The position numbers were made by a program, and so were the translations under genes. This document shows, piece by piece, positions 3,095 to 57,781 of a stretch of DNA of 64,000 nucleotides (position 1 is the stretch's first letter; the number at the start of each line of letters is the position of its first letter). Under the pieces are notes generated by a model, which saw nothing but the letters and a program-made list of their open reading frames with translations, was not told where the DNA came from and did no database searches. The stretch spans positions 186,001 to 250,000 of the forward strand of contig JAEUMT010000027.1 in assembly GCA_016791365.1 (NCBI GenBank). Reading direction: 5' to 3'. Origin of the DNA: Hyphomonadaceae bacterium (lineage in GTDB: Bacteria > Pseudomonadota > Alphaproteobacteria > Caulobacterales > Aquidulcibacteraceae).

Positions 3095-4402
3095 ATGCGT
3101 CTCAAGGCGCGATTTGCAGGACCATTGCAGGGCAGCATCCGCCCGCCGGGGGATAAGTCGATCTCCCACCGGGCGCTCATTATGGGCGCCCTGGCGGAAG
3201 GCGAAACCCGAATCGAATGCCTGCTGGAAGGCGAGGATGTCCGGCACACGGCGGCGGCTGTCCGTCTGCTTGGCGCCAAGGTCGACCGGCGCGACGACGG
3301 CATCTGGACCGTGACCGGCGCGAACGGCTTTAGCCAGCCCAGCGAAACCATCGATTGCGGCAATTCGGGCACCGGCGCGCGGCTGCTTATCGGGGCGGCG
3401 GCGAGCTACAAACTAAGCGCACGGTTCGATGGCGATCAGTCCCTGCGTAAGCGACCGATGAACCGGGTGATTGCGCCGCTGTCGCAGATGGGCGCGCGCT
3501 TCGACAGTCCGCAAAACCGCTTGCCGCTGATCGTCCACGGCGGAGCGCTGAAAGGGATCACGTATCGCTCGCCGGTATCGTCGGCGCAGGTGAAATCCGC
3601 GGTGCTGTTGGCGGGGCTGCACGCCGAGGGCGAGACCGTGCTCATTGAGCCGGAGCGCTCACGCGACCACACCGAGCGGATGCTCGCGGTGTTCGGCGCG
3701 GACATCGATCGCGTCGAAGTCGATGGCGCCCTGCATCCGCGCGTACGACCCAGCAAACTCAAAGGCGTCAATATCTACGTGCCAGGCGATCCCTCGTCGG
3801 CGGCGTTTCCGGTGGCGGCCGCGCTTATCGTGGCAAAATCCGAGGTTCGGATTGAGGACATGCTGGTCAACCCTCTCCGGCTCGGCTTCTTCGAGACGCT
3901 GCTCGAGATGGGCGCCAATATTGTCTATGAAGAGCGCCACGATCCGATCGGCGAACCGATCGCCAATCTTGTCGTGAAAGCGTCAAAGCTGCACGGCGCG
4001 ACGCCGCCGGCGAAACGCGCGCCGGCCATGATCGACGAATTTCCGATCCTCGCCGCGGTGGCGGCGTTTGCAGAAGGCGAAACACGCATCACCGGCGCCG
4101 CCGAATTGCGCGTGAAAGAAAGTGACCGGATTACATTGATGGTTGAAGGCCTGCGCGCGTGCGGCGTTGAAGCCGAAGAATTGCCGGATGGCCTGGTCGT
4201 GAATGGCCGCGGGCCCAAAAGCGTCCGCGGCGGCGCTGAAATCCGCACATTGGGCGATCACCGCATTGCGATGTCGTTCCTGGTGCTGGGGCTTGGGTCG
4301 AAAGAGCCGGTAACCGTCGATGACGCCGACATGATAGCCACCTCGTTCCCGGGATTCGCAGCCTTCATGCAGAATTTGGGCGCAGATATTGTCGGGCTTT
4401 AA
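3095..4402 (+). CDS. aroA: 3-phosphoshikimate 1-carboxyvinyltransferase (EPSP synthase)
   Basis: Cytoplasmic enzyme of the shikimate pathway that transfers the enolpyruvyl group of PEP to shikimate 3-phosphate. The 435-residue length is normal. The N-terminal GDKSISHRALIMGAL (residues 19-33) holds the Lys/Ser substrate-binding residues, and NSGTGARLL and the C-terminal LGDHRIAMSF are further EPSP synthase signatures. ATG at 3095 is preferred over in-frame codons upstream because the protein then begins MRLKARFAG, directly before the PPGDKS motif. In related genomes aroA is followed directly by cmk and rpsA; here an ~8 kb block of unrelated genes separates them. Identification is secure. Confidence 0.97.
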   Translation: MRLKARFAGPLQGSIRPPGDKSISHRALIMGALAEGETRIECLLEGEDVRHTAAAVRLLGAKVDRRDDGIWTVTGANGFSQPSETIDCGNSGTGARLLIGAAASYKLSARFDGDQSLRKRPMNRVIAPLSQMGARFDSPQNRLPLIVHGGALKGITYRSPVSSAQVKSAVLLAGLHAEGETVLIEPERSRDHTERMLAVFGADIDRVEVDGALHPRVRPSKLKGVNIYVPGDPSSAAFPVAAALIVAKSEVRIEDMLVNPLRLGFFETLLEMGANIVYEERHDPIGEPIANLVVKASKLHGATPPAKRAPAMIDEFPILAAVAAFAEGETRITGAAELRVKESDRITLMVEGLRACGVEAEELPDGLVVNGRGPKSVRGGAEIRTLGDHRIAMSFLVLGLGSKEPVTVDDADMIATSFPGFAAFMQNLGADIVGL

Positions 4403-4481
4403 CGCGCGCTAAACCACGCTCCTACCGCGCTCCGTTAACGACATCTCTGCATACTCCGCGCAAAACAAGACGGGTGGGGCT

Positions 4482-6770
4482 ATGCGTGCATCGATCCTGC
4501 GCGCGCTCATTGCGAGCGTGTGCGCATTCTGCGTTGTGGACGTTGCTGTGGCTCAGCAACGACCGGCGCCGGAAACCGATTGGATCGTGCGCGGCGAAGC
4601 CCTCGCCCGCCGGATTGAAGCCGGCAACCTTATCATCACCGACGATGTGAAGCGCCAGCGCGCGCTTTCGGCGCGCGGCCTCACGGACGAAGCGCGTCTG
4701 ATGGCGCTCTACGATATGGCGGCTGACGAATACATCGCGTCGAACGCGGACGCGGCCGCAACGGCGCTTGCGGCGCTGGAGCAGGAAGCGCGCGCACAAT
4801 CGAACGCGCGTTTCATGGCGATGGCCGGAATGCTGCGCGCGTACGCACCGGCGCTCGACGGCGATTACGTCGCCGCGCGTTCCAATCTCGCCGGCGCGCT
4901 GGCGACCGTCACTGACCCTTATGTGCGCGCCAGCGGTGAGCGTCTGCGCGCGTATGCGCTGACCGATTTGGGTATGTTCGGCAACTCGCTGGAAGCGGCG
5001 CGCGCCGGCCTGTTGCACCTGCCCGATACGCCGGAAACGCGCCCGTTGCGTTCCGGTTTGCACGACGCGATGGCCTACAATTCGGTGCGCGTCGGCGATT
5101 ACGAGACGGCTCTGACCCACCTGGAGCGCACCGTTGAACTTGACACACTGGCGAGCCGCCCGATCGACGGCGCGGTCATCATCAACAACATTGCTGGCAT
5201 GTTCGCACAAGCAGGCGCGGCTGAAGAATCCATCCGCCTGGCACGCATCCATCGCAACGTGGTGGGCGCGATCAACGACCCGACATCGCAATTCTTCACC
5301 GGGATGCTCTGCGCGCGCGTGCATTTTCTGGCCGGCGATTATCCGAGCGCCCTCCACTGCGCCGATGAAGCCGGCAAAATAGAAGGCGCGCCCGTTGAAT
5401 ACCTGACGCGGATGCTGGTGTATCGTGTGCACGCGCTGGCGCGCCTTGGACGCGGCGCCGACGCGCGCGCCGCGATGCAGGAATTGCGGCATATGGCGGC
5501 CGAGCGCGGCGACCCGGGGCTGACCGAGAAGCTGGACGTCATCGAACCGGAAATCCTCAATGCCGAAGGCCGTTACGCCGACGCGTTCACGGCCATGCTG
5601 CGCGCTCACGAAGCGTCCGAACGAAACCAGATGACGCGCTTCAACGCCGGCGTCCGCGAATTGCGCGCGACGATGGAAAGTGAAGTTGCGCAGGCCGAGG
5701 CGCGCGCCGAGGCGCAGGCGATTCAGTCCGACTTGCAGGCGCAGACGCTGAAAATGATGACGCTGGCGATGGTGCTGGCGGGCGGCTGCGTGGTCGGCCT
5801 TATGGTCATCGCGTTCCTGATCTACCGCAGCCGTCGCAACATGATGCGCGCGGTCGGCCGCGCCGAAGAAGTGCTCGCGCGCCGCGGCGCCGACACGCCC
5901 GCCAATGACAGCGGCAAACGGCAAGGCCCGACGGCGCGCCTTGCGCACATCCTCGACGAAATCGAACGTCGCGACGTGGAGCTGAAGCGCGCGTTCCAGG
6001 ACCTGGAAGCGGCGCGGGCGACGGCCGAACAGGCGAACGTCGCCAAGTCACAGTTTCTCGCCACCATGAGCCACGAACTGCGCACGCCGCTGAATGCGAT
6101 CATCGGCTATGGCGAGATGCTCATGGAAACCGCGGATGAGCGCGGCGACAGCCAGGACCGCGACGATCTTGTTCGCATCCACGGCGCGGCGCATCGCCTG
6201 CTGTCAATGATCAACGACGTACTGGATCTTTCGAAGATCGAGGCCGGCGCAGCGATTGTCGCGGCGGATAAAGTTGATCTTGACGCTCTCATCAACGAGA
6301 CGGTCGCAACCGTAAAACCCGCCGCGGCCGCAAATGGCAGCAGCATTGCCGTTGAAGCGCCGCCAGAGCTCGGCGGCCTCGAAACGGATGGCTTCAAGCT
6401 TAGCCAGTGCTTGTTGAACCTGATGTCCAACGCGGCAAAGTTCACCAAGGACGGCCAGATCAAGCTGGTGGTTGAGCGCGACAGCGATTGGGTGACGTTC
6501 CACGTCATCGACACGGGCATTGGCATTTCGCCTGACGCTCAGACGCGCCTGTTCCAACCCTTCGTGCAGGCCGACGCGACGACGACGCGCGCCTACGGCG
6601 GCACCGGGCTGGGCCTCGCGATCACCCGCCGGCTGGCGCGACTGCTCGGCGGCGACGTCACGCTGAAGAGCGCTGTTGGTCAGGGTTCTGCGTTTACGCT
6701 GCGTGTTCCCACGCGTCCGGCGCCGGAACTTGAAGTTCCAGCCAACGATGAGGCGCGCAACGCAGCGTGA
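4482..6770 (+). CDS. Sensor histidine kinase with large N-terminal helical sensor region
   Basis: A 762-residue two-component sensor kinase. Residues 1-24 look like a signal peptide or first membrane helix (ending VAVAQQ). Residues ~30-420 are alanine-rich and helical, with a spacing suggestive of TPR repeats, so a periplasmic TPR-like sensor is likely. A transmembrane helix lies at about 426-450 ([16 protein letters not shown]...), followed by a coiled linker. HisKA has SHELRTPLN with phospho-acceptor His531, and the HATPase domain has the N box ([11 protein letters not shown], ~645), DTGIGIS (~677) and GGTGLGLAI (~706). There is no receiver domain and no adjacent response regulator, so it is an orphan. 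It sits between aroA and a small secreted protein. ATG 4482 is preceded by GGTGGGG. Confidence 0.9.
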
Positions 6771-6831
6771 TCGATTTCAACTGAACTCTCTGCTCCCATG
6801 CGCGTTGTTGCGCGCATAGAGGAGCATTCCA

Positions 6832-7296
6832 ATGAGAAAGTTCGTTGTAGCGGCGGTGTTGGCGCTCGGGGTGTCAGCAGGCGCGATCGCTTACGCGCAA
6901 GGCAAGGGTGAGCCTGGCGATCAGGGCGTACGCGCAACGCCTATGGACACTTACGCTGAAAGCGCGGTCATGGAACCGCGCGGTGAAATTGATGCCAGCG
7001 ATGCGCGGAGCCTGGCGAGCGATCAGGCCGTCGGCGAAGCGCGGCGGTATTATCGCGCGCAGTGCAACGAGTATGAATCGGCTGGCTTCTGCGAATGCGT
7101 CACCGCCGGCGTCGCGCAAGCTTTGATGCCTGACGAAGTCCGCATCGCGGCGCGCACGATCGGTGAGCGCATCAACGCCGAGGGCGACGCTGCTATTTCC
7201 AGCCAGTCAGACACGACAACCGCGATGAGCTCGGCCGAGCGCATCGAGCAGGTTGAGGGGCACTACGCTGAGGCTTGCGCTCAGTACCGCGGCTAA
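6832..7296 (+). CDS. Small secreted hypothetical protein with four cysteines
   Basis: 154 residues, no recognised family. Residues 1-23 form a classical signal peptide (MRKFVVAAVLALGVSAGAIAYAQ, cleavage after AYA), so the product is probably periplasmic. The mature part is acidic, with Cys residues in AQCNEY, GFCECV and EACAQY that could form two disulfides. ATG 6832 has GAGGAG nine bases upstream (agaggagcattcca). Between it and the kinase upstream is a 7-bp inverted repeat (ATGCGCG...CGCGCAT, about 6798-6817). It may be co-transcribed with the kinase. Its stop codon overlaps the stop of the convergent symporter gene (CTAA, 7293-7296). Confidence 0.7.
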   Translation: MRKFVVAAVLALGVSAGAIAYAQGKGEPGDQGVRATPMDTYAESAVMEPRGEIDASDARSLASDQAVGEARRYYRAQCNEYESAGFCECVTAGVAQALMPDEVRIAARTIGERINAEGDAAISSQSDTTTAMSSAERIEQVEGHYAEACAQYRG

Positions 7297-8552
7297 GGGG
7301 CCGGCGATCCTTCATCCTTGCGCGGCTCGTTTCGCGCGAGGATGGAGGTGGCGGCCAAATCGCCCGTCACGTTGCCCAGCGTGCGGAAAATATCCGGGAT
7401 AATCTCAACGGCGATCAGAATGCCCAGCACTTCCGTTGGCACGCCAAGCGCTAAACATATCGGCGCGATCGAAGCGATGAAGGACACCTGCCCCGGCAGC
7501 CCGACCGCGGCGATGCTGACGGCGTAGGCCACAACGACCGCGCTCACGATCTGAATCAAGGATGGTTCGAGATTGTAGAGGTGCGCGATGAAAAAGCAGA
7601 CGGCGAGATTCGCGACAGGGCTGGTGAAGCGGAAGATGGCGACGGCGAGCGGCAGAATGACATCGGCGACACGAGGTGAAATTTGCAGGCCACGCAAAGC
7701 GGCCTCCAACATTGCCGGAAGCGACGCCAGAGAAGATTGCGTCGAGGCGGCGATCGCCCACACCGGCGTCGCCGCCGACGTGAAGCGCGCAATCGGCTGA
7801 CCGCCCCAGGTTATGGCGATGAGCCAGGCAATGACGGTTGAACCAGCGGTGACGCCGGTGACGATGACGACATATTGCGCAAGCGTGCCGGCGGCCGAGA
7901 AACCGGCGTGAAGACCAACACCCAGCGCAAGCGCAAAAACGCCAATCGGCCCCGCCAATAGAACCCAATGGACGATCCGGATCATGGCCTCGGAGACGGC
8001 CCGGAAAAAGTTGACGATCTGCGCGCGCATTTCAGGCGCGAGGGTCGCCGCCGCGAAACCAAAGAAGATCGAAAACACGACAAGCGCGAGCATGCCGTCT
8101 TCGGCGGCGGCTTTAATTGGGTTGTAGGGCGCGAGGCCTTGCAGCCATGAGGCGAAGGTTGGCGGCTCGCTGATCGTGACGGCTTGATCGCCGACGCCGG
8201 CGACAAACGCATCGGCGGCGGCGCGATCCAGCGGCCAGGCGGCAAGCCAACCATTGGTGACAAGAACGCTGTACGTCGCGGCGAAGAAAAGCAGCACGGT
8301 GAACAGGCCGATGCCGCGCGCGACGAGACCGCCGGTTTTGGCGGTGTCGGCCACGGAGGCGATGGCGGTGATCAACAGCGAGACAACAAGCGGGACGACC
8401 GTCATTCGCAGGGTGTTGAGCCAAAGTCCCCCGAACGGCTCAATGACGCCGCTGATGCTGAGCAGTGTGGGATCGCCACTGGCGCGAATGAACGCACCGG
8501 CGGCCAAGCCGGCGACAAGCGATAGCAAGACAAGAATCGAAATGAACTTCAC
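7293..8552 (-). CDS. Dicarboxylate:cation symporter (DAACS family)
   Basis: A 419-residue inner-membrane transporter of the sodium/proton:dicarboxylate (SDF, DAACS) family, which imports C4-dicarboxylates or acidic amino acids. Hydrophobic helices occur throughout. The N-terminal LNTLRMTVVPLVVSLLITAIASV, the mid-protein serine-rich re-entrant segment (AIAASTQSSLASLPAML, ~275-291) and GLPGQVSFIASIAPICLALGVP (~351) match the conserved HP1/HP2 regions. The family Asn-Met-Asp-Gly (NMDG) sequence is replaced here by VANLAVC, which makes the substrate uncertain. GTG start at 8552. It lies directly downstream of the flavin monooxygenase on the same strand. Family call is confident, substrate is not. 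Confidence 0.88.
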   Translation of the reverse strand: MKFISILVLLSLVAGLAAGAFIRASGDPTLLSISGVIEPFGGLWLNTLRMTVVPLVVSLLITAIASVADTAKTGGLVARGIGLFTVLLFFAATYSVLVTNGWLAAWPLDRAAADAFVAGVGDQAVTISEPPTFASWLQGLAPYNPIKAAAEDGMLALVVFSIFFGFAAATLAPEMRAQIVNFFRAVSEAMIRIVHWVLLAGPIGVFALALGVGLHAGFSAAGTLAQYVVIVTGVTAGSTVIAWLIAITWGGQPIARFTSAATPVWAIAASTQSSLASLPAMLEAALRGLQISPRVADVILPLAVAIFRFTSPVANLAVCFFIAHLYNLEPSLIQIVSAVVVAYAVSIAAVGLPGQVSFIASIAPICLALGVPTEVLGILIAVEIIPDIFRTLGNVTGDLAATSILARNEPRKDEGSPAP

Positions 8553-8606
8553 GCGCGACCCCGGGAGAGCGAGATCGACGGTCGTAGCCGATGCTGCAGC
8601 GCAGCG

Positions 8607-10109
8607 CTACTCTGCCGCGACGGCCTGACGCGTGACAGGCGCCATGGCCGCCGGCGCGTTTCGCCTGCTGAACTTGAGCACGCCGTCTTCGATCTGGCCG
8701 AAGCGCAAGTCCATCATGTCGTGGACATAGGACTGGTTCTGTTTCCACGGCGCTTTTGTCATTTGCTTGGGCAGCAGGTGCTCGGCGCGCGCGAAATAGC
8801 CTGACGAGAAATCCGCAAACGGCTTGTCCTCGTGCGGGCCCTCGGCGACACGCGGCGTCGCCGATCCCAAACCATACATGTCGAGATAATTGATCAAGCG
8901 ACAAACATATTCGTTGATCAGGTCCGCGCGCAGCGTCCACGACGCGTTGGTGTAGCCGAAGACGAACGCCATATTCGGCGCGTCCGAGAGCATCGCGCCC
9001 TTGTAGGTGTAGCTCTTGCCAACATCGACCTTCCTGCCGTCGACCGAAATCTCGGCGCCGCCGAGCATGCGCAGGTTCAACCCCGTCGCGGTGATGATGA
9101 TGTCGGCCTCAAGCTCCTTGCCGGATTTGAGCTTCAGCCCCTTCTCGGTGAAGCGCTCGATATGGTCAGTCTCGATCGAAGCTTTGCCGGATTTGATCGC
9201 CAGGAACATGTCATTGTCCGGCACCAGGCAAAGGCGCTGCTCCCACGGATTGTAGGGCGGCGTGAAATGCGTCTCCATGTCGTAGTCGGGGCCGAGTTGC
9301 TCGCGGATGAGACCAAGCAGGCGCTCGCGCGTCTTGGCCGGGCGATTACGCGCCAGACGGAAGAAGATTTGCTGGAAGATGATCTTCCGGAAGCGGGTCA
9401 TGTCGTACGCCAGCTGGCGCGGTAGATTCTTGCGACCCCAATTCGCCAGCGTATCTTCGGCGGGCATCGAGACCATGTAAGTCGGCGTGCGCTGGAGCAT
9501 GGTCACGTGCGCGGCTTTGTCGGCCATTGAAGGCACGAGCGTCACGGCGGTGGCGCCCGAACCGATCACGACCACGCGCTTGCCGGCGTAGTCCAGGTCC
9601 TCCGGCCAGTGCTGCGGATGGATGATCCGGCCCTTGAACGCCTCCGTGCCCTGCCAGGCCGGCAGGAAGCCTTCCTCGTAATTGTAATAGCCGGCGCAAA
9701 CGTGAAAGAAGGTGCAGGTGAAGCGCTTCAGAACGCCGTCGTGCTCGACCTCGACCGTCCAGAGCTGATCCGCGGATGACCAGTTCGCGCTCACCACGCG
9801 ATGCTTGAAACGAATGTGCTTGTCGATGCCGTTCTCGGCGGCGGTTTCGTGGACGTATTTCCAGATCGACGGGCCGTCGGCGATCGCTTTCTCTTCCGTC
9901 CAGGGTTTGAACGAATAGCCGAGCGTGAACATGTCGCTGTCCGAGCGAATGCCGGGATAGCGGAAGAGATCCCAGGTGCCGCCCATATCGGCGCGGTTCT
10001 CGAGGATGACGAAAGACTTGTTCGGACAATTCTTCTTGAGGAAATATCCCGCGCCGACGCCGGATATGCCCGCGCCTACAACGACAACGTCGAAATGTTC
10101 AGTGCTCAT
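8607..10109 (-). CDS. Flavin-containing (Baeyer-Villiger type) monooxygenase
   Basis: A 500-residue class B flavoprotein monooxygenase. The FAD-binding Rossmann motif VGAGISGVGAGY is at residues ~11-22, and GGTWDLFRYPGIRSDSD follows at ~43-59. The Baeyer-Villiger fingerprint FxGxxxHxxxW(P) is present as FKGRIIHPQHWP at ~156-167, and the NADPH Rossmann motif VVVIGSGATA at ~178. Such enzymes insert oxygen into ketones, or oxidise S/N centres, using NADPH and O2; the physiological substrate cannot be told. ATG at 10109. It is on the same strand as the hybrid kinase upstream (gap 55) and the symporter downstream (gap 54), so the three could be co-transcribed. Confidence 0.9.
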   Translation of the reverse strand: MSTEHFDVVVVGAGISGVGAGYFLKKNCPNKSFVILENRADMGGTWDLFRYPGIRSDSDMFTLGYSFKPWTEEKAIADGPSIWKYVHETAAENGIDKHIRFKHRVVSANWSSADQLWTVEVEHDGVLKRFTCTFFHVCAGYYNYEEGFLPAWQGTEAFKGRIIHPQHWPEDLDYAGKRVVVIGSGATAVTLVPSMADKAAHVTMLQRTPTYMVSMPAEDTLANWGRKNLPRQLAYDMTRFRKIIFQQIFFRLARNRPAKTRERLLGLIREQLGPDYDMETHFTPPYNPWEQRLCLVPDNDMFLAIKSGKASIETDHIERFTEKGLKLKSGKELEADIIITATGLNLRMLGGAEISVDGRKVDVGKSYTYKGAMLSDAPNMAFVFGYTNASWTLRADLINEYVCRLINYLDMYGLGSATPRVAEGPHEDKPFADFSSGYFARAEHLLPKQMTKAPWKQNQSYVHDMMDLRFGQIEDGVLKFSRRNAPAAMAPVTRQAVAAE

Positions 10110-51980: not shown

Positions 51981-52049
51981 TATGCGGGGCGGAGCCCCGC
52001 GCTCCAACCTGGATGCGTTCGAATGCCGGCGGGGCGCCGCCGGTCCATA
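51981..52049. repeat. Palindromic intergenic element (copy B)
   Basis: Two half-units in tandem: ATGCGGGGC-GGA-GCCCCGC-GCTCCA and ATGCCGGCGG...CGCCGGTCCATA. Ends match the TATGGA/TCCATA family of copies C and D. It lies immediately downstream of the polA stop on the minus strand, so it may act as its terminator. Confidence 0.65.
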
Positions 52050-55019
52050 CTAGTGCGCCGCGCCCCAGGTTGCGCCAGCTTTCGCTTCCACGGTCAGCGG
52101 CACGCTTAGAATAGCCGCGGGCTCGGGCGCCGCTTCCATCACGTCTTTCGCGAGCTTGCACAGCTTCTCCGCCTCTTCCTGCGGCGCTTCGAAGACGAGT
52201 TCGTCGTGCACTTGCAGCAGCATGCGTGACTTGAGCTTGGCGTTCGCCAGCGCGGGCGGCAGGCGGACCATGGCGCGGCGGATGATATCGGCGGCGGCGC
52301 CCTGGAGCGGCGCGTTGATCGACTGGCGTTCGCCGAAGGCGCGTTCGCTTGGGTTCTTCGACTGAATGCCTTTGACCCAGATGCGGCGGCCGAAAATGGT
52401 TTTCACGTAGCCGTTGGCGCGCGCGAAGGTTTTGGTTTCTTCCATGTAGTCGCGGATGCCGGGGAAGCGTTCGAAGTATTTCTTGATGTAGGCGCCGGCT
52501 TCTTCGCGCGCGATGCCGAGATTGCGGGCGAGGCCGAAGGCGCTGATGCCGTAGATAATGCCGAAATTGATCGCCTTGGCGTTGGCGCGGATGTCTTTCG
52601 GCATGCCTTCGATGGGCACGCCAAACATTTCCGACGCCGTGCGCGCGTGAATGTCGATGCCGTCGGCGAAGGCTTGCTTCAACTGCGGAATGTCGGCGAC
52701 GTGCGCGAGCAGACGGAGTTCGATCTGGCTGTAGTCGGCGCTGACAAGGACGTTGCCCTTCTCAGCGATGAACGCCTCGCGAATGCGGCGACCCTCTTCG
52801 GTGCGGATCGGGATGTTCTGCAGGTTCGGGTCGTTGGAGGCGAGACGGCCAGTGGTGCTGGCGGCGAGCGCGTAGGTGGTGTGAACGCGCCGGGTTTCGG
52901 GATTGACCGCGGCTTGCAGCGCTTCGGTGTAGGTGGAGCGCAGTTTTGAGAGCTGGCGCCATTCCAGCACTTTCGCCGGCAAGTCGTGCTGTTCGGCGAG
53001 GTCTTCGAGGATGGAAGCGTCTGTGGACCAGGCGCCGGTCTTGGTTTTGCTGCCGCCGGGGAGTTTCAGTTCGTCAAACAGAATTTCGCCGAGTTGCTTC
53101 GGCGAGCCGAGATTGAATTCCTTGTTCGCGAGGCCATAGGCCTCTGACTCGTATTGCAGCATGCGCTGCGCGAAATCGCCGGAGAGACGCGAGAGCATTT
53201 GCGGATCGATCTTCACGCCTTCGCGCTCCATCGCGGTGAGGATCGCAGGCAGCGGGCGTTCGAGCGTTTCATAGACGGTGATGAGCCGATTGCTTGCCAG
53301 TTCGGATTTGAGCTTGCGGTGCAGGCGCAGTGCGGCGTCGGCGTATTCGCACGAATACGCGGCGGCGCGTTCGATCGGGACGAGGGCGAAGCTTTGCTGC
53401 GCTTTGCCTTTGCCGGCGACATCGCTGTAGGGGGTGAGCGCGTGGCCGATGTGCTTTTCGATCAGCGAGATTTTGTCGTGATCATCGAGGCCGCCATAGA
53501 GCGTGTATGAGGCCAGCATCGGATCATCGTAGGGCGCGAGCGCGATTCCGTGCTTGGCGAAGAGCGCGATGTCCCATTTGACGTTGATGCCGATCTTGGC
53601 GACGGCGGGGTCTTCGAGCAGCGGCTGCAGCGCGGCGAGTACGGTGGTCAGCGCAATCTGCTCGCCTCCCCCGCCCCCTTGCGGGGCGAGCGCCTGGGGG
53701 TGGGGGGCGTTCAAACGATCAAACGCCTGTGCGTTTGCTCCGCCCCCCCTCCCCTGCCCCTCCCCCACAAGGGGGGAGGGGATTTCGCTTGCAAACAACT
53801 CACCCGCGCGCGGATCAGGCGCACGATGTGAGAGCGGGATATAGATCGCATCGTTCGCGGCGATGGACAGCGACACGCCGACGAGTTGCGCGCGCGCGGC
53901 ATCGAAGGAATCCGCTTCGGTGTCGATGCCGATGGCGCCGGCAAGTTTGGCACGGCGGATATAATCTTCGAGCGTCGGCAGATCGCGGACGATTTTGTAA
54001 GCGTCGCGTTTGAACTCGCGTTCGATCTCTTCGACCACGGGGCCAGTGCGTGCGCCGTCATCGGCATGTGCCGGCGCGGGCGCAGGCGCGGCGCTCGCAT
54101 AGCTGGCGACGATCTGGACGCCCTTCTCTTTCGCGAAATGCTCGCGCACACGGCGGCCGAGCGTACGAAACTCCATCGCGTCGATGAATTGCAGCAGCAT
54201 CGATGGGTCGGGCTCGCGCAGTGCGAAGGTTTCCCACTTCTCTTCGACATCGACGTCATCTTTCAGCGTGACGAGTTCGCGCGAGAGGCGGATTTGGTCG
54301 GCGAAGTTGATCAGCGTTTCGCGGCGCTTTTGTTGTTTGATTTCGTTGGCGCGTTCCAGGATGGCGTCGAGTGAGCCGAATGTGGTGATGAGTTCGGCGG
54401 CGGTCTTCGGGCCGATCCCGGGCGCGCCAGGGACGTTATCAGTCGAATCGCCAATGAGAGCTTGAGCGTCGATGACCTTATCGGGACCCACGCCGAATTT
54501 TTCCATGACGGCGTCGAGACCGAGAATGCGGTTCTTCATCGGATCATAGAGTTGGATGATCCCATCGACGATGAGCTGCATCAGGTCCTTGTCGGATGAG
54601 ACAATGCGTACGCTCGCGCCGCTCGCGGCGGCCTGGCGCGCATAAGTGGCGATGAGATCGTCGGCTTCAAAGCCACCCATTTCGATGCAGGGCAGATTGA
54701 AGGCGCGCGTGGCGTCGCGGATCAGCGGAAATTGTGGAACGAGATCTTCGGGCGCCGGCGGGCGATGTGCCTTGTATTCAGGATAGAGTTTGTTGCGGAA
54801 CGTGACTTCGCTTTTGTCGAAGATCACCGCGAGGTGCGTTGGCGCTTCAGCGCCTTTCATCTCCTCCAGGAACTTCCACAACATGTTGCAGAAGCCGGCG
54901 ACGGCGCCAACGGAGAGCCCATCGCTCGCGCGCGTCAGCGGCGGCAGCGCGTGGTAGGCGCGGAAAATGTAGGCCGAGCCGTCGATGAGGTAGAGGCGCG
55001 GAGCGTCTTTTTTAGCCAT
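52050..55019 (-). CDS. polA: DNA polymerase I
   Basis: 989 residues. The 5'-3' exonuclease (1-~290) has LIDGSAYIFRAYHALPP and DKDLMQLI. The 3'-5' exonuclease is intact: IGIDTEADS (Asp, Glu), KIGINVKWD (Asp) and YSCEYAD (Tyr, Asp). Polymerase motifs include SADYSQIELRLLAH (motif A, ~758), RANAKAINFGIIYGIS (motif B) and QVHDELVFE (motif C, ~935). Between the exonuclease strands, residues ~410-449 are a Gly/Pro-rich insertion encoded by a palindromic repeat. ATG 55019. Used in Okazaki-fragment processing and repair. Confidence 0.97.
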   Translation of the reverse strand: MAKKDAPRLYLIDGSAYIFRAYHALPPLTRASDGLSVGAVAGFCNMLWKFLEEMKGAEAPTHLAVIFDKSEVTFRNKLYPEYKAHRPPAPEDLVPQFPLIRDATRAFNLPCIEMGGFEADDLIATYARQAAASGASVRIVSSDKDLMQLIVDGIIQLYDPMKNRILGLDAVMEKFGVGPDKVIDAQALIGDSTDNVPGAPGIGPKTAAELITTFGSLDAILERANEIKQQKRRETLINFADQIRLSRELVTLKDDVDVEEKWETFALREPDPSMLLQFIDAMEFRTLGRRVREHFAKEKGVQIVASYASAAPAPAPAHADDGARTGPVVEEIEREFKRDAYKIVRDLPTLEDYIRRAKLAGAIGIDTEADSFDAARAQLVGVSLSIAANDAIYIPLSHRAPDPRAGELFASEIPSPLVGEGQGRGGGANAQAFDRLNAPHPQALAPQGGGGGEQIALTTVLAALQPLLEDPAVAKIGINVKWDIALFAKHGIALAPYDDPMLASYTLYGGLDDHDKISLIEKHIGHALTPYSDVAGKGKAQQSFALVPIERAAAYSCEYADAALRLHRKLKSELASNRLITVYETLERPLPAILTAMEREGVKIDPQMLSRLSGDFAQRMLQYESEAYGLANKEFNLGSPKQLGEILFDELKLPGGSKTKTGAWSTDASILEDLAEQHDLPAKVLEWRQLSKLRSTYTEALQAAVNPETRRVHTTYALAASTTGRLASNDPNLQNIPIRTEEGRRIREAFIAEKGNVLVSADYSQIELRLLAHVADIPQLKQAFADGIDIHARTASEMFGVPIEGMPKDIRANAKAINFGIIYGISAFGLARNLGIAREEAGAYIKKYFERFPGIRDYMEETKTFARANGYVKTIFGRRIWVKGIQSKNPSERAFGERQSINAPLQGAAADIIRRAMVRLPPALANAKLKSRMLLQVHDELVFEAPQEEAEKLCKLAKDVMEAAPEPAAILSVPLTVEAKAGATWGAAH
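53671..53790. repeat. Palindromic repeat inserted in frame within polA
   Basis: About 120 bases with G/C-only arms: CGCCTCCCCCGCCCCCTTGC-like at one end and CCCTCCCC...GGGGGGAGGGG at the other, plus an inner AAACGCCTGTGCGTTT. It encodes about 40 residues including SPLVGEGQGRGGG and PQALAPQGGGGGE, with no counterpart in normal PolA, and keeps the frame open. Confidence 0.85.
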
Positions 55020-55989: not shown

Positions 55990-56364
55990 ATGTTCGACCA
56001 TCTCTCGCTTGGCGTGCGCGATCTCGAAGCGGCGGCGCAATTCTATGACGCGCTGTTCGCGCCGCTTGGCCATTCCAAGACGTGGTCGAAAGAGAATGAG
56101 CTCGCGTACGGCCGCGATGGCACGCGTCTGTTCCGGCTCTATCCAACGAACGGCGATCGCATTGCGGGCTTGGGCGCGCAGATCGCGTTCCGCGCCACGT
56201 CAGAGCAGGAAGTGGATGAAGCTTATCTCGCCGCGCTCGAACACGGCGCGACAACAGTGCGCGCGGCCGGTCTGCATCTGGACATCGGCCCGGACTATTA
56301 CGGCGCGGTGGCGCTCGATCCCGATGGCAACAAGATCGAGATCGTCGTCGGTGCAATGCACTAA
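55990..56364 (+). CDS. VOC family (glyoxalase/bleomycin-resistance fold) protein
   Basis: 124 residues, vicinal-oxygen-chelate fold. MFDHLSLGVRDLEAAAQFYDALFAPLG at the start and YYGAVALDPDGNKIEIVVGAMH at the end are typical; metal ligands would be the first His and the C-terminal Glu. Substrate unknown. ATG 55990, divergent from the lyase gene and followed one base later by a palindromic element. Confidence 0.9.
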   Translation: MFDHLSLGVRDLEAAAQFYDALFAPLGHSKTWSKENELAYGRDGTRLFRLYPTNGDRIAGLGAQIAFRATSEQEVDEAYLAALEHGATTVRAAGLHLDIGPDYYGAVALDPDGNKIEIVVGAMH

Positions 56365-56439
56365 TATGGAGCGCGGGCGTCCTCGCCCGCATTCTTCTTC
56401 TTCGGTTTAGCACGCGGGCGAGGACGCCCGCGCTCCATA
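56365..56439. repeat. Palindromic intergenic element (copy C), perfect 26-bp inverted repeat
   Basis: Arms 56365-56390 and 56414-56439 are exact reverse complements (TATGGAGCGCGGGCGTCC... and its mirror), around a 23-base loop. Outer ends are TATGGA/TCCATA. It sits between two convergent genes and starts right after the VOC stop, so it probably ends both transcripts. Confidence 0.85.
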
Positions 56440-56443
56440 GCGA

Positions 56444-56677
56444 TCAGTGATCGTCGCCCGCGCCGTGCGCGAGGACGAAGCGGCGGTCGCAATAGCCGCA
56501 TTCGACGAAATTCTCTTCGCCCATGTCGTAGAACACGACCGGATGGCCCAGCGCGCCGCCGCCGCCGTCGCACTTCACGCGGCGCGACGTGACTTCAATG
56601 ATCTCCGGCGCGGGGATCGCGTCAGGATCGCCTGGGGTTGAAGCGTCGGTTCTCGGATTGTCGTGAAGTTTCGACAT
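56444..56677 (-). CDS. Zinc-finger (zf-CHCC, NDUFS6-like) protein
   Basis: 77 residues. The CHCC zinc finger reads VKCDGG...GALGHPVVFYDM...NFVECGYCDRRFVL (Cys, His, Cys, Cys), the pattern of the small zinc protein related to complex I subunit NDUFS6. The bacterial role is not established here. ATG 56677; the open frame upstream to 56866 overlaps the divergent ABC gene and is not considered coding. Confidence 0.88.
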   Translation of the reverse strand: MSKLHDNPRTDASTPGDPDAIPAPEIIEVTSRRVKCDGGGGALGHPVVFYDMGEENFVECGYCDRRFVLAHGAGDDH

Positions 56678-57717: not shown

Positions 57718-57781
57718 TATGGACCGCCGGCGTCCCCCCGGCCGGCTCCGGAGAATGCCGGCGGGACGCCGGCGGTCCATA
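57718..57781. repeat. Palindromic intergenic element (copy D)
   Basis: A 64-bp near-perfect inverted repeat: TATGGACCGCCGGCGTCCC at the left, its mirror GGGACGCCGGCGGTCCATA at the right, with a short spacer CTCCGGAGA. It begins three bases after the ABC ATPase stop. The left arm differs from the right by one base in 25. Confidence 0.85.

Follow-up and report, generated by a model that had tools for sequence, protein, structure and literature searches.

A dispersed palindromic repeat lies in frame within polA of a Hyphomonadaceae bacterium

The polA gene in the window, as the whole stretch of 64,000 nucleotides analysed here from a Hyphomonadaceae bacterium is called, contains a genuine insert that keeps the frame and is specific to the lineage: a copy of a dispersed palindromic repeat, one of many such inserts in the genus. 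In our reading, to which a probability of about 0.88 is assigned, a non-autonomous dispersed palindromic repeat entered polA after the split from the nearest sequenced relatives and has been tolerated as a disordered loop. Direct support is provided by the repeat family, the in-frame state of the copy, its absence in close relatives, the predicted disorder of the loop and the many copies in coding sequence. During this process, a copy of the element, consisting of two terminal hairpins and a central stem, would have landed in polA within this lineage, at a predicted strand-helix loop of the 3'-5' exonuclease domain; the net change kept the frame, and the copy is stop-free in it. Since the frame is kept and the copy holds no stop, a loop of ~38 residues rich in Gly and Pro should be translated. 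This disordered loop would be made in the cell and tolerated by a PolA that presumably remains active, and copies in other frames or places would be removed by selection.

The polA element and its family

The polA gene is located at 52050-55019 on the minus strand and encodes a DNA polymerase I of 989 aa, assigned from the open reading frame, its translation, Pfam and the NCBIfam DNA polymerase I family. Pfam matches are 5_3_exonuc_N, 5_3_exonuc, DNA_pol_A_exo1 and DNA_pol_A. It can be seen that the reading frame is open through the insert and that each of the three expected domains (5'-3' exonuclease, 3'-5' exonuclease, polymerase) has its match, in agreement with the claim of the first-pass annotation that the frame had been left intact. 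The element occupies 53667-53781 on the minus strand, in frame, as PolA residues 414-451 (PSPLVGEG...PQGGGG), and scores 86.9 bits with nhmmer and 95.8 bits (E = 4.6e-13) with a covariance model, the polA copy itself being among the sequences from which both models were built. An earlier placement at 53671-53790 (residues ~410-449) had found the element, with ends that were off by 4 and 9 bp. The first terminal hairpin (53758-53780, minus strand, columns 2-24 of alignment A1) has a 9-bp stem and a 5-nt loop, with 9 of 9 pairs intact. Among the nine pairs of the second (53669-53691, minus strand, columns 102-124), one is broken (G-G) and one is U-G. Alignment and folding place between them a central region (53692-53757, minus strand), in which a G/C stem encloses a variable middle. 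The inverted arms had been described as G/C only, which is nearly true of the terminal hairpins and does not hold for the central part. Furthermore, the two halves of the element are imperfect inverted repeats of each other, 71% complementary over 51 nt, and each end is itself a hairpin.

Folding had been proposed as a check, and the polA element folds far better than dinucleotide shuffles on either strand (z = -6.8 and -5.2), with 0 of 200 shuffles as good. The predicted RNA fold reaches -89 kcal/mol. The minimum-energy fold of the polA copy is a single long hairpin, and three hairpins are formed in two of the three other copies folded; across the five folded sequences (the polA copy on both strands, the three others once each), z ranges from -5.2 to -6.8. 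At the protein level, an AlphaFold model obtained with 23 PolA sequences has a mean pLDDT of 80.5 and a pTM of 0.64. Residues 405-451 display pLDDT below 50 and no secondary structure, the adjacent blocks 381-400 and 451-470 are at 83-96, and the low-confidence loop is situated between a confidently predicted strand (390-395) and helix (457-468). Low pLDDT is also observed for residues 299-330 and 715-730. Residues 405-451 are predicted to be a disordered loop, and within the 3'-5' exonuclease domain the insert presumably separates exonuclease motif one from motif two, motifs that we take to be those of E. coli.

Other copies are dispersed through the genome of the window (a draft of 3.46 Mb in 65 contigs, 99.5% complete), and the search recommended in the first pass does retrieve them. 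BLAST with 53650-53810 returned 44 rows including the query itself (43 besides polA), several of which represent one place read on both strands because the element is a palindrome. The four best other copies show 79-82% DNA identity across about 105-120 bp, and two of them are located in argS and the helicase gene. With the covariance model at E <= 1e-3, 81 rows were merged into at least 43 distinct places, polA included, a number that is a floor because only 150 of 2266 candidates were scored. Both the model and alignment A1 were built from 17 full-length copies including polA; 18 copies were within the length and score limits, and L095:3129-3246 was left out. Copies are 86-156 bp long, mostly 104-156 bp, and their consensus opens with a 5' hairpin that has a stem of 9 bp and a loop of 5 nt, continues with a central G/C stem enclosing a variable part, and ends with a 3' hairpin that resembles the first in inverted form. 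Some copies, for example that in imuB, bear an extra small hairpin module. Among the 22 pairs of the aligned copies, 6 display pair-keeping changes on both sides, a value reached by 0 of 500 shuffles, with 0 to 3 for slid versions; the tally of pair types, by contrast, did not exceed that of shuffles (339 of 500). In the first hairpin, 7 of 9 pairs are invariant across the alignment, so they are uninformative for covariation. At one locus (L095, G000:C53:9000-23265), four copies, one of them in argS, lie within about 7 kb at 3129-9715.

Further repeats are present in the window. A second, different palindromic repeat at 56360-56445, just past a small ORF that is glyoxalase-like by eye, gave 57 BLAST rows in the same genome including itself, some near full length and many representing single arms of ~25-33 nt. 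Moreover, a G/C-rich, partly palindromic stretch of 29 nt occurs twice, at 52021-52049 and about 57753-57781, with 27 of 29 bases alike. The former directly abuts the 3' end of polA, and the stretch is perhaps a third repeat family.

The PolA loop across the genus

PolA loci were compared from three outgroups and from the genus, where 27 of the 30 members (all but G003, G016 and G028) are covered. The proteins of G029, G004, G024 and G027 are 91-95% identical to that of the window and have no insert, which answers the comparison with close relatives proposed in the first pass; the insert is lineage-specific because it is absent in these four. Their loop is different and short, about 11 residues, so the polA junction reads as a replacement rather than a clean insertion. 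Residues conserved in relatives, together with a lack of other copies, had been set beforehand as the refuting outcome, and neither half of it held. In a FastTree phylogeny from which the loop was excluded, the PolA of the window groups with G029, G004 and G024 with a support of 0.977, the internal order being partly supported. The insert is absent in 21 of the 30 tips. Repeat-like residues are observed in the loop of the remaining nine, namely the window, G005, G012, G013 (short), G009, G025, G021, G011 and G017, the last being a short and doubtful remnant. In G011 the contig (L036) stops partway through the polA element, which illustrates how the repeat can interrupt an assembly; contig breaks of this type perhaps hide further coding copies.

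This distribution bears on an older origin, by which one insertion in polA of the genus ancestor was inherited, lost many times and partly overwritten by gene conversion. Occupation of the same loop in several lineages is consistent with such a history, and the inserts in G009, G025 and G021 resemble one another most closely, at 0.71-0.79 (insert similarities, from 0.23 to 0.85, are given throughout as normalised local alignment scores with a maximum of 1 and are not identities), so inheritance after insertion does occur. However, a single ancestral gain demands 10 losses, against 6 changes under equal-cost parsimony (without G017, 1 gain and 8 losses against 5 changes). Moreover, the polA insert of the window is nearest to copies in other genes, namely lysE of G012 (0.73), ileS of G017 (0.70) and its own argS (0.61), and reaches only 0.23-0.40 with the polA inserts of six other species, although likeness to copies elsewhere in the genome is also what gene conversion would produce. 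A single old insertion is considered unlikely. Separate insertions at one PolA loop would be the simplest reading of the compared sequences, with inheritance plus gene conversion possible, and the loop looks like a recurrent insertion site that holds unlike repeat inserts in several lineages of the genus.

Host genes and their loops in relatives

In the genome of the window, 15 of the 43 places (the latter count being a floor) lie in frame inside ORFs with coding-like codon use on both sides, as judged by a codon score trained on six window ORFs. Hosts associated with repair and replication are polA, uvrC, a ligase-associated DEXH helicase gene and a gene for an ImuB-like Y-family polymerase (Pfam IMS only); the remainder are argS, trmB, mnmC, rsmB, prmA, pdhB, pdhC, metH, asnB and the genes of an acyltransferase-3 protein and a chromate transporter. 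Curated families match both sides of the insert in 13 of the 15 hosts. In trmB and the ImuB-like gene the family match is on one side only and the opposite side aligns to relatives; both have a low codon score on one side and were kept for their Pfam matches. Three places (C5:28645, C51:15165 and C44:120612) were dropped despite a positive codon score on both sides, their scores being low and their ORFs having no Pfam match. A half copy in ileS lies outside the 43 places, and hosts number 16 with it counted. The other 28 places, sorted by codon score and not by annotation, comprise 18 that are flanked on either side by a coding-like ORF, 3 in open frames that precede a matched domain, and 7 for which a coding-like ORF was found on one side or none. 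The three in open frames (L090:1261-1372, L078:3023-3134 and L103:3072-3197) precede ThiG, Polyketide_cyc and peptidase M16, respectively, may be read as N-terminal extensions of these, and were left out of the coding count. Because 15 of 43 is far fewer than random landing would give in a genome assumed to be ~88% coding, copies inside genes seem to be removed unless harmless. The number of open frames per copy approximately matches the prediction from base composition, implying that the element is not evidently built for coding. Peptides from 34 in-frame copies, chosen for lying in open frames, consist of 20% Gly, 20% Pro and 0.1% Cys, with hardly any Trp or Met.

A single combined query for the 15 non-polA hosts (14 plus ileS) was run against five relatives to locate their orthologues, yielding 60 stretches (15 in G004, 15 in G027, 14 in G029, 13 in G005 and 3 in G009). 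For 5 of the 15 genes (argS, prmA, metH, rsmB and the acyltransferase gene), a short, alignable, repeat-free loop is observed in G004, G029 and G027 alike. The lhr site is filled in G029 and empty in G004 and G027, the uvrC loop holds an insert in G029, G027 and G005 but is short in G004, and pdhB of G029 is occupied as well. In trmB, G029 has an insert that matches that of the window's genome (0.85, normalised local alignment score) and is absent from G004. A short repeat-like insert is present in asnB of G029, and argS of G005 has kept a shortened insert. The sites in pdhC, mnmC, imuB and chrA are loops or linkers that vary anyway, and base-level alignment of eight genes displayed junctions that are not clean. 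In G005, the corresponding loops of lhr, pdhB, trmB and polA (L157, L159, L164 and L010) hold inserts that match the element family of the window poorly and are perhaps another repeat type.

Under stricter filters, the element is matched in 28 of the 30 genomes of the genus, among them that of the window (none in G015 and G019), and in 14 of 31 other members of the family or order. A class-wide search of 240 genomes, with 15 candidates scored per genome, gave matches in at least 45 genomes including that of the window, the others being weaker. When 40 of the best-listed places in G020, G005, G012, G009, G017 and G029 were examined, 19 were in frame in genes, a proportion that estimates no genome-wide fraction as the places are high-scoring rows; all 19 ORFs have Pfam matches, and gene names beyond those of Pfam are our own reading. 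Recurrent hosts are uvrC and ileS (four each) and glyS and an lhr-type helicase gene (two each), and single hosts are metH, pdhB, pdhC, an ImuB-like gene, uvrD, a DnaE-type polymerase gene with a PHP domain and a LysE-type transporter gene. Those of uvrD and the DnaE-type polymerase are both in G009, both places examined in G029 are out of frame, and G020, a single contig of 3.86 Mb, carries in-frame gene copies too. Inserts in ileS are found at two sites, before the anticodon-binding domain in G020 and in the half copy of the window's genome (L178 and L086), and mid-protein in G005, G009 and G017 (L184, L199 and L205), the latter site being, we presume, the editing region. There is some chance, though on the low side, that the element repeatedly enters the same loops in separate lineages (polA, uvrC, the ligase-associated helicase gene, the ImuB-like gene, ileS, also pdhB/pdhC) through steered integration or conversion, or through selection, and not by mere tolerance.

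A benefit beyond toleration, through PolA activity, mRNA structure or repair, might also keep the insert in place. Hosts in the window's genome lean to replication and repair (polA, uvrC, the ligase-associated helicase and the ImuB-like gene), with uvrD and the DnaE-type polymerase in G009; tRNA-charging genes are represented by argS and the ileS half copy here and by ileS and glyS elsewhere; and insertion into shared loops is seen in more than one species. The same gene leaning is reported for REPs in the cited sections of PMC3733652. A binomial calculation for the repair genes gave 0.0006 or 0.007 when the class was taken as 2.5% or 5% of genes; it was formulated post hoc, with the class size assumed in place of a gene catalogue and the ileS half copy among the 16 hosts. 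Against a benefit, the peptide is predicted to be disordered, near relatives do without the insert, inserts differ and shrink (as in argS of G005), and the leaning was judged without a gene catalogue. Such a benefit appears rather improbable.

The remaining alternatives carry very little weight. An ordinary, variable G/P-rich loop arising from slippage would suit the differing loop lengths among species and the G/C-rich DNA, but is refuted by the genomic copies, given their identity to the insert and the hairpin covariation. An assembly artefact at the repeat might be suspected from the 65 contigs of the draft and the G011 contig ending inside the polA element; however, polA continues in the same contig and frame on either side of the element, where a mis-join at the repeat would unite different genes, and such inserts are seen in 15 genes of this genome as well as in other assemblies, including single-contig G020, which makes it scarcely credible. 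Removal of the element from the mRNA, or its skipping by the ribosome to give PolA without these residues, could draw on the very stable RNA fold, but is most improbable, as the open frame would be needless (an argument that is partly circular, the 34 copies having been picked for open frames) and an Rfam search of 53400-54000 gave nine hits, all far below the cut-offs. Tolerated insertion of the repeat in this lineage is retained as the best explanation.

Relation to known palindromic repeats and significance

Rickettsia palindromic elements (RPEs) were reportedly described by Ogata in 2000 and 2002. According to the cited sections of PMC3767692, RPEs are in frame in many genes, and R. japonica and its relatives hold different RPE types in the same genes. 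The present element resembles RPEs as portrayed in parts of PMC3767692 and PMC2229807, these being palindromes of ~100-150 bp, both intergenic and in frame in conserved genes, at the same sites in orthologues and sometimes of differing type. It is itself a dispersed palindrome of ~100-150 bp, in frame in conserved genes and absent from orthologues, and the analogy with RPEs drawn in the first-pass annotation fits in behaviour (dispersed, in frame, absent in relatives). Unlike RPEs, it resides in a Hyphomonadaceae/Caulobacterales host and is G/C-rich with three stems, the likeness drawn here being one of behaviour.

Repeats of the GTAG/CGTC type that lie inside genes in a wide range of bacteria, with DNA synthesis and repair genes prominent among the hosts, were described by Di Nocera 2013 (PMC3733652), whose cited sections name DNA polymerase I and tRNA synthetases as hosts of intragenic REPs. 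The element shares with these REPs its palindromes within ORFs, with repair/synthesis and tRNA synthetase genes among the hosts. REPs are given there as 20-40 bp, tagged, with CGTC stems nearly always starting with A/T pairs, whereas the element is ~115 bp, has C-G first pairs and is tag-free beside the hairpins. By the definition in the same sections, a CGTC REP has a stem of 8-9 bp with A-T as first and second pairs, a CGTC tag and a CCA tail (PMC3733652). The stem here is 9 bp, but its first two pairs are mainly C-G and neither tag nor tail is seen on inspecting alignment A1, and a CGTC REP was rejected. A RAYT-associated REP was likewise rejected: no copy is present within the examined flanks of three Y1_Tnp loci, one of which (L100) is cut by a contig end, and there is no tight co-occurrence, 7 of the 18 element-bearing genus members searched having no Y1_Tnp match, with some genomes incomplete. 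These searches tie no mobilising enzyme to the element. Over 31 sites with a model score of 60 or more, a target-site duplication of at least 5 nt was found at one (shuffled mean 0.68), and by this mark the element is not a MITE.

The CIRs of Caulobacter and Brucella (Chen and Shapiro 2003, summarised in the cited part of PMC2229807) are also similar, being ~110 bp with two hairpin arms and a linker and occurring in other Alphaproteobacteria too; they contain GANTC in a loop, were not found intragenically according to that summary, and have stops in all six frames. Unlike CIRs, 34 of 36 element copies are without GANTC and many copies are coding. With GANTC in only 2 of 36 copies and coding copies present, membership of the CIRs was rejected. 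RIME elements of rhizobia are mosaic palindromic repeats in Alphaproteobacteria, a likeness by description; the extra small hairpin module of some copies here, such as that in imuB, sets the present element apart. Among the open-licence papers listed for Terricaulis, Hyphomonadaceae and intragenic palindromes, no title concerns the element. The kind is already known, from RPEs and from intragenic REPs even in DNA polymerase I in the cited sections of PMC3733652; what is new is the element itself, the lineage in which it occurs and the fact that particular loops are occupied again and again.

Most of what is known of protein-coding palindromes comes from Rickettsia, whose intracellular life might account for them through weak selection; reports from other bacteria are sparser. 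Here, a new lineage and a new element are added to the few known cases, and such palindromes are found on a large scale, in core genes, in a presumably free-living genus with ordinary genomes of ~3-4 Mb. Empty, filled, shortened and differently filled sites occur among about 30 sequenced species, and this variety makes it testable how such repeats spread, how far core enzymes tolerate them and whether repair genes are truly favoured, as the 2013 report suggested.
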